Source of the DNA: Paenarthrobacter sp. JL.01a
GTDB taxonomy: Bacteria > Actinomycetota > Actinomycetes > Actinomycetales > Micrococcaceae
DNA length: 64,000 nucleotides
Assembly: GCF_025452095.1 (NCBI RefSeq)
Contig: NZ_CP104877.1
Span: 682,001-746,000, forward strand
Reading direction: 5' to 3'
Shown: positions 27,220 to 37,568 of the stretch, piece by piece
How the letters are laid out: the number at the start of each line of letters is the position of its first letter
How positions within the stretch are numbered: position 1 is the first letter of the stretch
Translations under genes and position numbers: made by a program
The notes under the pieces: model-generated
Seen by the model: only the letters and a program-made list of their open reading frames with translations
Database searches by the model: none
Told to the model about the DNA's origin: nothing

Positions 27220-27423
27220 ATGGATGACGTCAAGGCTATTGGTGTGAACATCAGGAATGCCCGGAAGGTCGCCGGTATCACGCAGGGCACTCTCGCGGAT
27301 CTGATTGGCACGTCCGCTCGTACTGTCCACGCCATTGAAACGGGGACGGGTAACCCATCGCTGCAGACGGTTGTCGCGGCGGCCAATGCTGTGGGCCTGC
27401 GACTGGGGACCATTGATGGCTGA
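27220..27423 (+). CDS. hipB: HipB-like antitoxin (XRE HTH)
   Basis: 67 residues from the ATG at 27220. A single Cro/C1-type HTH fills it: IGVNIRNARKVAGITQGTLA, then GTSARTVHAIETGTGNPSLQTV. It is a short form without the C-terminal extension of E. coli HipB. It binds the kinase HipA and represses the operon through the palindromes just upstream. The frame is open to 27178, but an ATG there would place the start inside the operator. Its end overlaps hipA by 8 bases. Confidence 0.9.
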   Translation: MDDVKAIGVNIRNARKVAGITQGTLADLIGTSARTVHAIETGTGNPSLQTVVAAANAVGLRLGTIDG

Positions 27424-28603
27424 GGATCTGGCCCGGCTGAAGTTCGTCCGAAAGGCGGATGTCTACAAATCGGGGGTACTGGCCGGCCACTTGGAACGCA
27501 CGCAGCGCGGCAGTGTGGTCTTCGGCTACGTCCCGGAGTACGCAGCCAGTCCCGTCGCAAGTACGCTGCCTTTCGCGCCTGATCCGGTCGAATCCCCGAA
27601 CGGTGCGCTGCCGGCCTTTTTCGCCGGTCTCTTGCCCGAAGGCCACCGCCTGACCGTCCTCAAGGATGCCGTCAAGACGAGCCTGGCGGACGAGCTCAGC
27701 CTTCTGTTGGCCGTCGGCGCCGATGTTCCCGGCGACGTCCAGATCGTCCCAGCGGGACAGCCGCCGCTGGAGCCCGAATCCCTGGCCGACGCGTCCAGGC
27801 CTGAAGACCTCGACTTTGCCTCCTTGGCCGAGGCCGTGGACCTGCACGGACTGCCAGGTGTCCAGAGCAAGGCCAGCGCCTCGATGCTCACCACCCCGCT
27901 CGCGCTGGCAGGCCGCCGGTACCTGCTCAAGCTGGACCCGCCACTGCACCGGCAGCTTGTGGTCAATGAGGCGGCGCACCTGGCTGGGGCCAAGGCCCTG
28001 AAGATCCCCGTCGCGGCCCACAACGTGGTCCGCGACCGGTTGGGTCTGCACGGACTGCTCGTGGAGCGGTTTGACCGAATCCAGAACGACGGCGGTGACG
28101 TCCGGCGGTTGCCTCTGGAGGACGCTGCGCAGGTCATGAATCTTCCGCCGGCATCCAAGTACGCTGTCAGCTCCGAGGATGTCGTTATGGCCTTGGCGGG
28201 ATTGTGCAAGGCCAGGCCGGTGGCCGTGCGGAACCTCTATCTGCAGTTCGTGTTCGCCTGGCTTACCGGCAACGGCGACCTGCACGCGAAGAACGTTTCA
28301 GTTCTGGGTCGTCCGAAGGGTGGGCGGGCGGTGGCGCCGATCTATGACATCCCGTGCACGCTCCTCTACGGAGATGACACCATGGCTCTCCCTGTCAGTG
28401 GAAGGGCCAAGGGGCTGAGGGCGAGACACTGGCGCGAGTTTGCCGCCGCCATCGGCTTGCCTCAGCGGGCGGCGGCCGCAGCCAACGCCACAGCCCTCGC
28501 GACAGCATCGGCCATCAAGCTCGAGGAGCTGCCTTTCACCGGCTCGCCCCTGAACGGAACCCTGCGCGAGCTTCGGTTCCGCCGCGCCGAGCTGACGCCT
28601 TGA
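27416..28603 (+). CDS. hipA: HipA-like serine/threonine kinase toxin
   Basis: 395 residues starting at ATG 27416 inside the end of hipB. N-terminal couple domain: VYKSGVLAGHLERTQRG. Kinase core: the Gly/Ser loop GVQSKASASML, the ATP-lysine strand RYLLKLDP, NEAAHLAGAKAL, LLVERFDR, and the catalytic loop NGDLHAKNVSVL with the base Asp near residue 287; then PIYDIPCTLLY (metal-binding Asp). All catalytic residues are present, so it is probably active. E. coli HipA phosphorylates glutamyl-tRNA synthetase and causes persistence; the target here is unknown. GC content resembles the surrounding chromosome, unlike the second module at 35.9 kb. Confidence 0.92.
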   Translation: MAEDLARLKFVRKADVYKSGVLAGHLERTQRGSVVFGYVPEYAASPVASTLPFAPDPVESPNGALPAFFAGLLPEGHRLTVLKDAVKTSLADELSLLLAVGADVPGDVQIVPAGQPPLEPESLADASRPEDLDFASLAEAVDLHGLPGVQSKASASMLTTPLALAGRRYLLKLDPPLHRQLVVNEAAHLAGAKALKIPVAAHNVVRDRLGLHGLLVERFDRIQNDGGDVRRLPLEDAAQVMNLPPASKYAVSSEDVVMALAGLCKARPVAVRNLYLQFVFAWLTGNGDLHAKNVSVLGRPKGGRAVAPIYDIPCTLLYGDDTMALPVSGRAKGLRARHWREFAAAIGLPQRAAAAANATALATASAIKLEELPFTGSPLNGTLRELRFRRAELTP

Positions 28604-28730: not shown

Positions 28731-28820
28731 TGGCGGTGACGGTGGGATTTGAACCCACGTTGGCTTTTACACCAAACAACATTTCGAGTGTTGCACCTTC
28801 GGCCGCTCGGACACGTCACC
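28731..28820 (-). tRNA. tRNA-Ser(CGA)
   Basis: Read on the minus strand: acceptor GGTGACG pairs with CGTCACC, discriminator G, and the CCA end is encoded (28731-28733). The anticodon stem CAACA/TGTTG encloses loop CTCGAAA, giving anticodon CGA. A long variable arm and T-arm GGGTTCAAATCCC complete a class II tRNA, as expected for serine; total 90 bases. Confidence 0.95.
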
Positions 28821-28957: not shown

Positions 28958-29959
28958 ATGACTATTCCTCGCGAGCACGTACACCAAGCCACCGCCTACT
29001 GGGTCACCAAGTCCGGCGATGGTGAACTGCGCCCCGAAGCCATTGAGAACCCCAAAGAAGAAGAAGCCCTGGTCAGGACCCTGTACTCCGGGGTCAGCCG
29101 GGGCACTGAACGGGTGGTTCACGAGGGCCGTGTTCCCGAACGCGTGGCCGATCTGATGCAGGCCCCGCACCAGGAAGGGGAGTTCCCCGGCCCGGTCAAG
29201 TACGGCTACCTGAGCGTCGGCGTCGTCGAACAGGGACCTGAGGAATGGATCGGCAAGACCATCTTCAGCCTCCACCCGCATCAGGACTTCTACGTCGTCC
29301 CCACGAGCCAGCTGACGCCCATCCCCGCGGATGTCCCCGCGCGCCGTGCGGTGCTGACCGGCATCGTCGAAGTTGCCATCAATGCCATCTGGGAAGCCGG
29401 GCCGAGGCTGGGAGACCGGGTCGCCGTCGTCGGTGGCGGCTTGGTGGGCGGCGTCCTGGCGACACTGCTGCGGAAGTATCCCCTGAGCCGCCTGCAGCTG
29501 GTGGACGCGGACCCGGAGAAGCGAAACCTCGCCGACAAGCTGGGCATCGAATTTGCCGAGCCTGGGAACGCGGACAACGACAACGACATCGTCTTCCACT
29601 GCTCCGCCTCCAACGACGGCCTCAAACTGAGCCTGCAACTGGCCGGCGATGACTCCGACGTCATTGAGCTTTCCTGGTTCGCTGACAAGGAAGTCACCCT
29701 GCCGCTTGGTGAGGATTTCCATGCCCGCAGGCTGAACATCCGCTCCAGCCAGGTGGGCGCGGTGGCGCTGCCCCGCAGGCACCGGCGGACCAACGCGCAG
29801 CGCTTGCAGGAAGCGGCCGCCCAGCTCAAAGACCCGCTGTTCGACACATTCCTGACCAGCGAATGCCAGTTCCAAAGCCTGCCCAGCACGCTCGTTAAAT
29901 TGTTCGAACGGCCCGGCGGTTTCTGCCACGTGGTCGCGTATCCAAACCCGGAGGATTAA
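28958..29959 (+). CDS. MDR-superfamily dehydrogenase (BchC-like)
   Basis: 333 residues. The N-terminal GroES-like domain has the SGVSRGTE motif typical of the BchC-like branch of medium-chain dehydrogenases. The nucleotide domain has the dinucleotide loop VAVVGGGLVGGVLATLL (residues about 156-172) and an acidic strand end LQLVDAD pointing to NAD(H). The usual zinc-ligand Cys/His set is not evident, so catalysis may be zinc-independent. It heads a three-gene operon with a PTPS-fold protein (3-base gap) and a GT4 glycosyltransferase (no gap). An oxidoreduction step on the same small molecule is the natural inference. The upstream 137 bases to the tRNA hold the promoter, not resolved. Confidence 0.8.
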   Translation: MTIPREHVHQATAYWVTKSGDGELRPEAIENPKEEEALVRTLYSGVSRGTERVVHEGRVPERVADLMQAPHQEGEFPGPVKYGYLSVGVVEQGPEEWIGKTIFSLHPHQDFYVVPTSQLTPIPADVPARRAVLTGIVEVAINAIWEAGPRLGDRVAVVGGGLVGGVLATLLRKYPLSRLQLVDADPEKRNLADKLGIEFAEPGNADNDNDIVFHCSASNDGLKLSLQLAGDDSDVIELSWFADKEVTLPLGEDFHARRLNIRSSQVGAVALPRRHRRTNAQRLQEAAAQLKDPLFDTFLTSECQFQSLPSTLVKLFERPGGFCHVVAYPNPED

Positions 29960-29962
29960 TAC

Positions 29963-30361
29963 ATGTTCAGCCTGACCGTCCGACGCCACTTCATGATCGC
30001 CCACAGCCTTCCCCGCGAAGCGTTCGGCCCGGCCCAAGGCCTCCACGGGGCCACGTTCGTTGCCGAAGTCAGCTTCCGGCGTCGTGAACTCAACAACGAC
30101 GCGATCGTCCTGGACATCGGCGCCGCGGGCGGCATCCTGGAGGAAATCCTCGAAGACCTGAACTACAAGAACCTGGACGAGCACCCGGCTTTCAAGGGCA
30201 AGCTCTCCACCACCGAGGCCCTCGCCAAGCACATTGCGGACGCCATGGCCACCCGGATCCAGGACACCGAGGACGGACCGGCGCTGGCTGGTATCGACGT
30301 CGTCCTCCGCGAGAACCCCGACGCCTGGGCGGGCTACTCGCTGGAGCTCGCGGCCAAGTAA
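29963..30361 (+). CDS. 6-pyruvoyltetrahydropterin synthase/QueD-fold protein with altered active site
   Basis: 132 residues, a single T-fold domain of normal PTPS/QueD length. Fold marks: RRHFMIAHSL, LHGATFVAEV, LSTTEALAKHIADAM, and the substrate-binding Glu region VVLRENPDAW (Glu117). Against the canonical enzymes several catalytic positions differ: the HGH zinc motif is HGA (third zinc His replaced by Ala30), the catalytic Cys four residues before it is Ala24, and the LDHxxLN catalytic Asp-His pair reads LNYKNLD (Asn67, Tyr68). The pterin-anchoring Glu is kept. It therefore probably binds a pterin-like or other purine-derived molecule but does not run the standard reaction. It is in a tight operon between the dehydrogenase and the glycosyltransferase. 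Confidence 0.8.
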   Translation: MFSLTVRRHFMIAHSLPREAFGPAQGLHGATFVAEVSFRRRELNNDAIVLDIGAAGGILEEILEDLNYKNLDEHPAFKGKLSTTEALAKHIADAMATRIQDTEDGPALAGIDVVLRENPDAWAGYSLELAAK

Positions 30362-31357
30362 GTGCGCATCCGCTTCCTCGTCCCCGGCAACGTCCGGCAC
30401 GGCTCCGGCGGCAACAAGTACAACGCCAAGCTCGCCGAACACCTGACAACCCTCGGCGCGATGGTTGAGACAGTAACGGTCGACGGCGATTGGCCGGTGG
30501 GCAGCCCAACGGACCGGCAACTGTTCGAAGAAGCGCTCGACGGCGGCACTACCGTGATTGCCGACGGCTTGGTGGCGAGCGGCGCACCGGAAGAGGTTGC
30601 GGGCGCCGTGCAGGCCGGGACCAAGGTGTGGATCCTTTCGCACATGGCGTTGGCGGACCATCCCGGGCTTGAGGCGAAGGCGTTGGCAGCGGCGACGGGG
30701 ATCATCTGCCCGAGTGCCCACTCGGCAGCCGAATTGCGGGCAAGGCACGGCCGGTTGGACATTGTGGTGGCCACGCCGGGCGCGGAACCGGCAGACATCA
30801 GCGAAGGCTCCCACCCCAAGCACATCGTGGCCGTCGCGGCCCTCCTGCCGAACAAGAGTCAAACACTCTTGATCCAAGCCCTAAGCCAGGTCAAGGACCT
30901 GCCCTGGACGGCCGCTCTCATCGGTTCCGAGGAAGCCGACCCGGCGTACGCGGCAGAGGTGAGGGCCGCCGTCGAACATCACGGTCTGCAGGACCGCATC
31001 CGTGTCACGGGCGAACTGACCGGGCAGGCGTTGCAGGACCAGTGGCATCGGGCGGACCTGAGTGTGCTGATCTCGCAGTCAGAGTCGTTTGGGATGGTGG
31101 TGACGGAGTCCTTTGCTCACGGAATCCCGGTGATTGTGCGGCAGGGGACCGGTGCCGTGGAAGCGCTGGGCGACACCGGCGCGGGAACGGCGTGGGATCC
31201 GGGAGGGTCGTTGGCGGGAACACTCCGGGCCTGGCTCACGGACAACGCCCGTCGGCAACGCTGGCGGGACAACGCCCTTCAGGCCCGCGACCACCTTCCC
31301 GGCTGGGAATCCACTGCCAGGACTGTGCTGGGCGCCTTGGAAGCTCCACCGAAGTGA
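30362..31357 (+). CDS. GT4-like glycosyltransferase
   Basis: 331 residues from a GTG directly after the previous stop. GT-B fold: N-terminal acceptor loop VPGNVRHGSGGNKYNAKLAEHL, a middle AVAALLPNKSQTLLIQAL (entry to the donor domain near residue 160) and the donor-binding helix SESFGMVVTESFAHGIPVIV with the EX7E pattern near residue 250. Retaining transfer of a sugar from a nucleotide donor in the cytoplasm. Cyanobacterial pterin glucosyltransferases are also GT4, so glycosylation of a pterin-like product of this operon is a reasonable hypothesis. Ends at a palindromic terminator shared with tadA. Confidence 0.85.
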   Translation: MRIRFLVPGNVRHGSGGNKYNAKLAEHLTTLGAMVETVTVDGDWPVGSPTDRQLFEEALDGGTTVIADGLVASGAPEEVAGAVQAGTKVWILSHMALADHPGLEAKALAAATGIICPSAHSAAELRARHGRLDIVVATPGAEPADISEGSHPKHIVAVAALLPNKSQTLLIQALSQVKDLPWTAALIGSEEADPAYAAEVRAAVEHHGLQDRIRVTGELTGQALQDQWHRADLSVLISQSESFGMVVTESFAHGIPVIVRQGTGAVEALGDTGAGTAWDPGGSLAGTLRAWLTDNARRQRWRDNALQARDHLPGWESTARTVLGALEAPPK

Positions 31358-31360
31358 CAG

Positions 31361-31395
31361 TTAATGACAATCCCGGGCCGCCGGATTGTCATTAA
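31361..31395. terminator. bidirectional terminator between the GT4 gene and tadA
   Basis: Perfect 12-bp arms TTAATGACAATC (31361-31372) and GATTGTCATTAA (31384-31395) around a GC-rich loop. It lies 3 bases after the glycosyltransferase stop and includes the tadA stop codon. Confidence 0.75.
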
Positions 31396-35860: not shown

Positions 35861-35907
35861 GTAGCTATTCTGTTGTATTAGCTGCTCTAATGCTCCAAAA
35901 TAGCTAC
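35861..35907 (+). promoter_or_regulatory. operator/promoter of the second hipBA module
   Basis: GTAGCTATT (35861-35869) and AATAGCTAC (35899-35907) are a perfect 9-bp inverted repeat flanking an AT-rich centre (TGTTGTATTAGC) that can carry the -10 element. A second inverted pair GGAGCAT (35851-35857) / ATGCTCC (35890-35896) interleaves with it. The palindrome ends at the base before the ATG at 35908. Confidence 0.75.
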
Positions 35908-36192
35908 ATGACTCTTAGTGATGCCGCCCAGCGTCTAGGGGAGAATCTCCGAAGCCGAAGAATCATTCTCGGCTTGTCGCAAGAGCTTGTTGCCGAACGT
36001 GCGGACATCTCACGACAGACCTTAATGCGTCTTGAAGCGGGTGAAGGTGGAAAGGTTGAGCACCTGATGACCGTAGCGTCAGTACTTGGTGTTGCTGATG
36101 ATCTTATTAATGCTGTCGATCCTCTGAATACTGACCTTGGCAAGGCACGGGCGCATTTGCTGAACAGGCAACGTGCCCCGAGGCGGAGCTAA
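35908..36192 (+). CDS. hipB: HipB-like antitoxin (XRE HTH), second module
   Basis: 94 residues from ATG 35908; an earlier ATG at 35890 lies inside the operator. XRE HTH: RLGENLRSRRIILGLSQELVA, then RADISRQTLMRLEAGEGGKV. The C-terminal 30 residues (NAVDPLNTDLGKARAHLL) extend beyond the HTH, unlike the first HipB. AT content is clearly higher than in neighbouring genes (GATGATCTTATTAATGCTG), a sign of recent transfer. Its stop and the hipA ATG share TAATG. Confidence 0.88.
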   Translation: MTLSDAAQRLGENLRSRRIILGLSQELVAERADISRQTLMRLEAGEGGKVEHLMTVASVLGVADDLINAVDPLNTDLGKARAHLLNRQRAPRRS

Positions 36193-37568
36193 TGGCGGTC
36201 CGAAACATCAGGCAGATTGAAGTACTCGTCAACGAGGCCTTGGCGGGCACGATGGACGTTGCAACGGACGGCCATTCTTCCCGCGAACATATCTCTTTCA
36301 CATACGCTGACAGCTGGTTATCGGCAGCGGAAGCTTTCGAAGTTTCTCCAGAGCTCCCCCTGCGTCGTGGTCCCCAGACGCCCACACTGGGGCGGGACCT
36401 ATTCGGGTCATTTCAGGATGCTGCCCCGGACGACTGGGGTAAAAAGCTGCTGTTCCAGGAACTTCGCCAAAAGGCGCTCGCCGACGGTGCCCGCCGGATC
36501 CCGCCCACGGGCGAGGCGGGTTACTTGTTGCTGGTCAATGATGAAACGAGACAGGGAGCGCTCCGGTTCAGGGAGAACGGCCAATTCCTGTCGTCGTGGG
36601 GTCGGGAGGCCCGGGTCCGCGACCTCAAAGTTCTCGCTGATGAAGCCAGGCTCTTTTCTGAAACCGGTGAAGTCAAAGAGGAGAACTCTTTGCTCATGGG
36701 AGCCGGTTCTTCTCCTGGCGGTGCACAGCCCAAGGCTTGGATACGGGACCATGACGGGTCAATGCTGTTGGCTAAGTTCCCGAAGACATCGGACATCAAC
36801 AACGTACAAATGTGGGAAATGGTCGCTGTCAGACTCCAACAGCGGGCACGCATCCTTGTCGCCGAGTCGCGGCTCATGCCACTGACGGAGTTTTCCCACA
36901 TTTTCCTCACACGGCGATTCGACCGCGACGGCTCCCGGCGCATTCCTTACATGAGCGTGCGAACGGCGCTCCAGTTGGACACATACTCGCATCCCGATTA
37001 CGTAAAAATTGCCTCGGAAGTCGCACACCTATCTGCGAGTCCAGTTCAGGACGCCAACGAGTTGTTCAGCCGGGCAGCTTTTATAGCCATGGTCAACAAC
37101 ACCGATGACCACATGAGAAACCACGGACTTCTAAGGACTGGAACAGGCTGGCGTCTGTCACCGTCGTTTGACGTGAATCCGATGCCTGTGGGGACATCGG
37201 AAACTCCGCTCACTCCACACGGTGGCCTGTTCGATAGGGACGTTCGGGATCTCTTGGACTTCGCCGACGCTTTTCGGTTGACCCGGGACTCGGCCATCGA
37301 AAGACTGCAGCACGTCGCGGAAGCGGTATCCCACTGGCGGGAGGAGGCCCTCAGCCTCGGAGCTGATGCTGAAACCCTGGACTACATGGTTAGGGCCTTC
37401 GAAGGTGAGAACAGCAGGCGTGTAGCATCCTTGACTCCCGCTCCGGCAGTCATCGATATCGGCGCATCAAGTGAGTCGAAACCCCGACAATCGCATGGGC
37501 ACGTCTGGGTGCCCGAACACGTGCGTAGCGGGAAAATCATTCCGGGGCATTTCCGACGACGGAGCTGA
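36192..37568 (+). CDS. hipA: HipA-like kinase toxin, second module
   Basis: 458 residues, the longer HipA type. The N-terminal domain (residues about 20-105) ends PPTGEAGYLLLVND; the ATP loop is SSPGGAQPKAWI (about 175); LLAKFPKTSD carries the ATP lysine; IFLTRRFDRDGSRR; catalytic loop NNTDDHMRNHGLL with base Asp at about 304; metal site PSFDVNPMP. All key residues are present. The last 40 residues (ending VWVPEHVRSGKIIPGHFRRRS) form an unusual basic tail past the usual HipA end. It is unrelated in detail to the first HipA, so the two modules are independent acquisitions, not a duplication. Confidence 0.92.
   Translation: MAVRNIRQIEVLVNEALAGTMDVATDGHSSREHISFTYADSWLSAAEAFEVSPELPLRRGPQTPTLGRDLFGSFQDAAPDDWGKKLLFQELRQKALADGARRIPPTGEAGYLLLVNDETRQGALRFRENGQFLSSWGREARVRDLKVLADEARLFSETGEVKEENSLLMGAGSSPGGAQPKAWIRDHDGSMLLAKFPKTSDINNVQMWEMVAVRLQQRARILVAESRLMPLTEFSHIFLTRRFDRDGSRRIPYMSVRTALQLDTYSHPDYVKIASEVAHLSASPVQDANELFSRAAFIAMVNNTDDHMRNHGLLRTGTGWRLSPSFDVNPMPVGTSETPLTPHGGLFDRDVRDLLDFADAFRLTRDSAIERLQHVAEAVSHWREEALSLGADAETLDYMVRAFEGENSRRVASLTPAPAVIDIGASSESKPRQSHGHVWVPEHVRSGKIIPGHFRRRS

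Follow-up and report, generated by a model that had tools for sequence, protein, structure and literature searches.

The closest described relative of the operon analysed here lies in Streptomyces coelicolor, where the T-fold protein SCO6650 (3d7j) is 52% identical to the T-fold protein of the window (the whole 64,000-nucleotide stretch of Paenarthrobacter sp. JL.01a DNA that was analysed), shares its FGPAQ...LHGAT motif and shows the same residue losses. Loci of the SCO6650 type resemble the window in having a dehydrogenase gene upstream and a GT4 glycosyltransferase gene downstream, but they additionally hold a GTP cyclohydrolase II (GCHII) whose residue 120 is Met, along with a creatininase, a methyltransferase and membrane proteins, none of which occurs at the window locus. 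Such T-fold proteins fall in PTPS-IV, which Phillips et al. are said to have described in 2012 as a subfamily of COG0720. FGPAQ is the signature of PTPS-IV within COG0720, and its neighbourhood with GCHII and RibD_C was reported in 2017 (PMC5445326); the PF00925 domain beside PTPS-IV is labelled 'GTP cyclohydrolase I/FolE2' there, while in Pfam PF00925 is GTP cyclohydrolase II. The window protein shares FGPAQ with PTPS-IV and its relatives have the PF00925 and PF01872 neighbourhood, but the source genome has neither a dedicated GCHII nor a dedicated RibD_C. In Sinorhizobium, a creatininase-family protein deformylates the formylated GCHII intermediate (PMC9478397). The archaeal ArfA-ArfB-ArfC route and the bacterial BrbF formamidase (PMC9478397) have in common with the creatininase-bearing clade of loci described below the conversion of GTP to a formylated pyrimidine, a separate deformylation and a RibD_C-type reduction. 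These routes serve riboflavin (and in archaea also F420), whereas in the creatininase clade a T-fold protein, a GT4 enzyme and a dehydrogenase stand alongside, and the source genome lacks the deformylase. Finally, the pteridine glycosyltransferase PsBGluT (9v0l) shares the GT4 fold of the third window protein, for which MshA, BshA and SenB are equally good or better matches.

The genome from which the window comes is Paenarthrobacter-like and measures 4.40 Mb. The operon occupies positions 28958-31357 and consists of three open reading frames separated by 3 and 0 bases, exactly as an earlier note on this DNA had placed them:

28958..29959, plus strand: MDR-family dehydrogenase-like protein of 333 aa with a predicted polyol-dehydrogenase fold lacking the catalytic zinc ligands (open reading frame, fold match)
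29963..30361, plus strand: PTPS-IV (FGPAQ) T-fold protein of the SCO6650 type, 132 aa, with HGA replacing HGH (PF01242, match to 3d7j)
30362..31357, plus strand: GT4 retaining glycosyltransferase of 331 aa with E241-x7-E249 and a GTG start (PF00534)
31362..31392, no strand: 13-base inverted repeat TTAATGACAATCC...GGATTGTCATTAA between the convergent GT4 and tadA genes

In the comparison with ten Arthrobacter/Paenarthrobacter relatives none of the three genes contained a stop and all were under purifying selection, which was strongest on the middle gene (dN/dS 0.03-0.15, against 0.09-0.26 for the dehydrogenase and 0.17-0.25 for the GT4 gene). The middle protein is 100% identical to that of locus L002 (P. 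nicotinovorans). A terminator shared by the three genes had been proposed. The hairpin at 31362-31392 is indeed present (fold z -4.6) and intact in L002 and L005; it has no T run, was absent from the plus-strand list of the terminator scan and is decayed or missing in the other relatives, and a role as a (bidirectional) terminator is only plausible. The sigma-70 promoter scan found no promoter. Just upstream of the operon lies the sole tRNA gene of the window, a tRNA-Ser (CGA) on the minus strand (28731-28820), and HipA-like kinase genes flank the operon on both sides (27305-28603 and 35890-37568), the latter with an HTH partner directly upstream. A role in anti-phage defence was rejected, as PADLOC gave no meaningful match.

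The middle protein scored 85.8 bits against the Pfam PTPS profile (PF01242; curated cut-off 22.4), and its sole strong relative of solved structure was SCO6650 (E 2.3e-32), which places it within the T-fold, as proposed. It carries FGPAQ at residues 21-25 and was therefore assigned to PTPS-IV; FGPA was present in all aligned members of 62 related loci. The standard catalytic residues are missing from this family, again in agreement with the earlier proposal: the catalytic Cys is replaced by Ala in 61 of 61 aligned sequences and the catalytic His by Tyr at 60 of the 62 loci, while the catalytic Asp varies. The third zinc His has become Ala in 53 and is still His in seven, all from one deep family of the phylum (f18), and a zinc-keeping cousin occurs in another class. 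Four QueD controls retained the triad, the zinc ligands and the Glu. Glu117, which we take to be the pterin anchor of PTPS enzymes, was kept at 62/62 loci, and judging from this residue the pocket may still be able to bind a pterin-like base.

The Pfam match would also suit an ordinary QueD, PTPS or folate-shunt (PTPS-III) enzyme that has been misannotated. This is very unlikely given the residue replacements and a score against the QueD equivalog of 36.7 bits, where the cut-off is 89.25; the cut-off of 6PTHBS was likewise not reached. In place of the PTPS-I/QueD motif CxxxHGH the protein has AQGLHGA, in which the Cys and the last His are both Ala, and neither CxxxxxHGH nor ExxHGH, the motifs of PTPS-II and PTPS-III (PMC5041015), was found in it. 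A role in queuosine or archaeosine synthesis was rejected, since there is no QueD motif, the gene is the only PTPS gene of the source genome and company of the QueE type was seen at the control loci only; a role in BH4 synthesis was unsupported.

For the dehydrogenase, no Pfam match was obtained at E 0.001, while its relatives match ADH_zinc_N. Its model (pLDDT 93.9) superposed best on polyol dehydrogenases (4ej6, Z 31.4, rmsd 2.3 over 293 residues), among them TarJ, and the protein is thus predicted to have the two-domain polyol-dehydrogenase (MDR) fold. Zinc-dependent MDR enzymes require Cys, His/Glu and Cys/Glu ligands. The window protein has S47, G49, T50 and E51 at the expected zinc Cys motif, with SRGTE at the first ligand and KYGY at the second, and no Cys was invariant among 46 dehydrogenase sequences. 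The suggestion that the enzyme is BchC-like did not hold, as it reached 24.8 bits against TIGR01202 over residues 24-62 only, far under the cut-off of 291.25. The third protein was recognized as a compact GT4 glycosyltransferase, as had been suggested, by PF00534 (Glycos_transf_1; 86.1 bits) and by E241 and E249, which form the invariant E-x7-E. Its model (pLDDT 97.2) matched MshA with a Z of 32.4 over 319 residues. A match to the tetrahydrobiopterin glucosyltransferase 9v0l (Z 28.2 over 310 residues, 16% identity) was outranked by MshA and BshA, so the fold singles out no pterin acceptor and 9v0l is a precedent only.

When a profile of the middle gene was run against the 395 genomes of the class and the 149 of the family, the SCO6650 type turned up in 57 and 40 of them, respectively. 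The distribution is patchy and reaches far outside close relatives; neither outcome that the earlier note had named as refuting its reading was obtained. Neighbourhoods were read at 62 SCO6650-type loci, and the neighbour counts are lower bounds because gene calling picked wrong-strand ORFs at L112, L116, L134 and L144. The MDR gene lay directly upstream of PTPS-IV at no fewer than 57 and the GT4 gene directly downstream at no fewer than 56 of these loci, and pairwise distances of the trio proteins correlate at 0.87-0.88, to which shared ancestry contributes. At L077, tadA directly follows the PTPS gene and the GT4 gene is missing from the locus. Fuller loci hold at least the following partners: GCHII (PF00925) at 33 and RibD_C (PF01872) at 32 of the 62, a neighbourhood that is a tendency of PTPS-IV, not a defining rule, and is absent at the window; a family-3 methyltransferase at 27; LPG_synthase_TM at 26; and a CDP-OH transferase (CDP-alcohol phosphatidyltransferase) with conserved motif residues at 18. 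Creatininase also occurs among the partners, as do, at many fuller loci, sulfatase-like membrane proteins. The earlier note had named GTP cyclohydrolase and methyltransferase genes as the company to look for in relatives; with both present, a glycosylated, GTP-derived product of the pterin type is the best reading, while the deazapurine it had also considered found no QueC or QueE company.

Two kinds of fusion tie these pieces to one pathway: GCHII-RibD_C in Micrococcaceae relatives, and a GT4-SAM methyltransferase directly after the PTPS gene (L119:10016-11941, L121:7394-9322 and, weakly, L149:10253-12157). Among the family genomes, 16 have a full-length GCHII-RibD_C fusion, 13 of them with PTPS-IV. 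The cluster-type CDP-OH transferase was present in 22/149, all among the 40 with PTPS-IV (Fisher p 1e-15, ignoring relatedness), and in many genomes the two genes are unlinked. A GCHII-RibD_C fusion was also observed in three genomes of one genus (G568, G716 and G775, g199; L189, L190) in which no PTPS-IV gene was detected.

A lipid or envelope product would suit the membrane partners equally well. The CDP-alcohol transferase, the LPG-synthase-type protein and the GT4 enzyme might make a membrane glycoconjugate, with the T-fold protein only a binding or regulatory subunit; the conserved motif residues of the transferase, the LPG_synthase_TM and sulfatase-like proteins at many fuller loci and an MDR fold nearest to polyol dehydrogenases, including TarJ, agree with this. 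We nevertheless consider such a glycolipid or envelope-precursor locus improbable, as a plain glycolipid has no role for GCHII and RibD_C and the trio persists at Arthrobacter loci without membrane genes.

The GCHII sequences of the fuller loci bear on the origin of a pterin-type product. The Streptomyces-like cluster GCHII has Met120 where the aligned E. coli enzyme (2bz0) has Tyr105; at related loci of family f89 the equivalent residue is His or Leu. The link between this Tyr and CREATININASE was consistent: the equivalent residue is Met, His or Leu in 11 loci and Tyr at all creatininase-less loci. In whole-genome searches a creatininase orthologue (E below 1e-90) was found in 11/11 non-Tyr genomes and in 0/17 others; in that of L137 it lies ~14 kb from the locus. 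Spoonamore and Bandarian reportedly found that SCO6655, the third S. coelicolor GCHII, stops at the formylated intermediate owing to this Met. Such a stop and deformylation by a creatininase would together fit as a split GCHII reaction, and the matching of Tyr loss by creatininase ties the locus to GTP-derived pyrimidine or pterin chemistry. In the GCHII trees the non-Tyr enzymes formed a single clade (support 0.97-0.98), which rules out many independent events; Tyr loss and creatininase gain therefore represent one event, not eleven, after which the freed site drifted. Taken together, the GCHIIs encoded in the clusters formed three supported clades, and housekeeping RibAs branched between these. 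This pattern suggests repeated recruitment of GCHII, although the deep nodes are weak.

All 14 of 14 Arthrobacter s.l. loci examined were bare, without these partners nearby. The only GCHII of the source genome is the RibA within the ribD-E-B-A-H operon, and searches of this genome found no fused GCHII-RibD_C, no creatininase orthologue (whole-genome search), no CDP-OH transferase at 1e-15, no family-3 methyltransferase (in a search run without a positive control) and no stand-alone RibD_C orthologue, of which Streptomyces-like genomes have one elsewhere. With the dedicated partners missing from both genome and locus, the operon is a minimal variant, either fed from housekeeping metabolism or repurposed. 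In the latter case the Arthrobacter s.l. trio would be a trimmed module outside the GCHII pathway, modifying a housekeeping pterin (dihydroneopterin, from folate synthesis) or another heterocycle. The absence of dedicated GCHII, RibD_C, methyltransferase and CDP-OH transferase from a genome whose trio is under strong purifying selection favours this, but the PTPS residues are the same as at fuller loci, and some trio-bearing Arthrobacter s.l. genomes have an unlinked second GCHII (G008, G552) or an unlinked CDP-OH transferase, as if the pathway were scattered. We regard repurposing as rather unlikely. In two trio-positive Arthrobacter s.l. genomes an unlinked GCHII is fused to an acyl-CoA dehydrogenase-like domain (L179:8858-10690, L177:6866-8749), its GCHII part being ~70% identical to a Micromonospora-like cluster GCHII. 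Trio genomes of genus g201 (L185, L186, L187) have an unlinked second locus with a CDP-OH transferase, a second GT4, a methyltransferase and an LPG-type protein.

Synthesis of F420 or another deazaflavin was also weighed. A role of PTPS-IV in it was suggested in an unpublished remark (PMC5041015), and the archaeal riboflavin/F420 route has steps similar to those of GCHII, formamidase and RibD_C. This is nevertheless extremely unlikely, as no CofH/FbiC was found in the source genome, and CofH occurs in 5/149 family genomes, only one of which, with a match below the cut-off, belongs to the 40 that have PTPS-IV.

We judge it somewhat better than an even chance that the operon is the minimal core of an actinobacterial locus which makes a glycosylated pterin- or diaminopyrimidine-type molecule from GTP through the GCHII branch. 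From the gene content, conservation, residue losses and co-occurrence observed, we infer the following chemical steps and product. GCHII would open GTP to 2,5-diamino-6-ribosylamino-pyrimidinone phosphate (APy); in the Tyr-less clade it would yield the formyl form, to be deformylated by the creatininase-type formamidase. For the fuller loci, this first stage starting from GTP has good support. The RibD_C reductase would then reduce the ribosyl chain without deamination of the ring, which would thereby retain the 2-amino-4-oxo pattern found in pterins. PTPS-IV may bind the heterocycle via Glu117, either as a triad-independent cyclisation or lyase enzyme of another type or as a binding partner, after which the zinc-free MDR enzyme would alter the redox state of the side chain and the GT4 enzyme would add a sugar; the order of these three is a presumed one. 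At fuller loci the methyltransferase, the CDP-alcohol phosphatidyltransferase and the LPG-synthase-type protein may finish or anchor the product. The source genome would have dedicated genes for the PTPS-IV, MDR and GT4 steps only, with RibA of riboflavin synthesis, or another housekeeping pterin, as the source of the precursor; supply from RibA in Paenarthrobacter is a guess.

The pathway had been put forward as undescribed. This needs qualification, as PTPS-IV and its GCHII/RibD_C neighbourhood are already published (PMC5445326). For SCO6650, SCO6655 and COG0720 no paper assigning a product was found in the literature searched, which was covered in part, and a description may exist elsewhere; within the same partial coverage nothing was found on the constancy of the trio, on the link to creatininase or on the bare three-gene form. 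A wider reading, which we offer tentatively and at somewhat less than even confidence, is that actinobacteria make from GTP, via the riboflavin-type cyclohydrolase II and not I, an undescribed class of pterin-type metabolite or cofactor that carries a sugar, is methylated in many lineages and is probably handled at the membrane, with the triad-less T-fold protein central to the pathway and the window operon as its irreducible three-gene core. SCO6650 has a solved structure with no function in the record found, and loci of its type were seen repeatedly, in Streptomyces-like, Micromonospora-like and Micrococcaceae genomes. With the loss of the GCHII Tyr and the accompanying gain of creatininase, the first half of the pathway becomes concrete and open to testing; the three-gene form marks the indispensable genes and offers the smallest unit for a hunt for the product.
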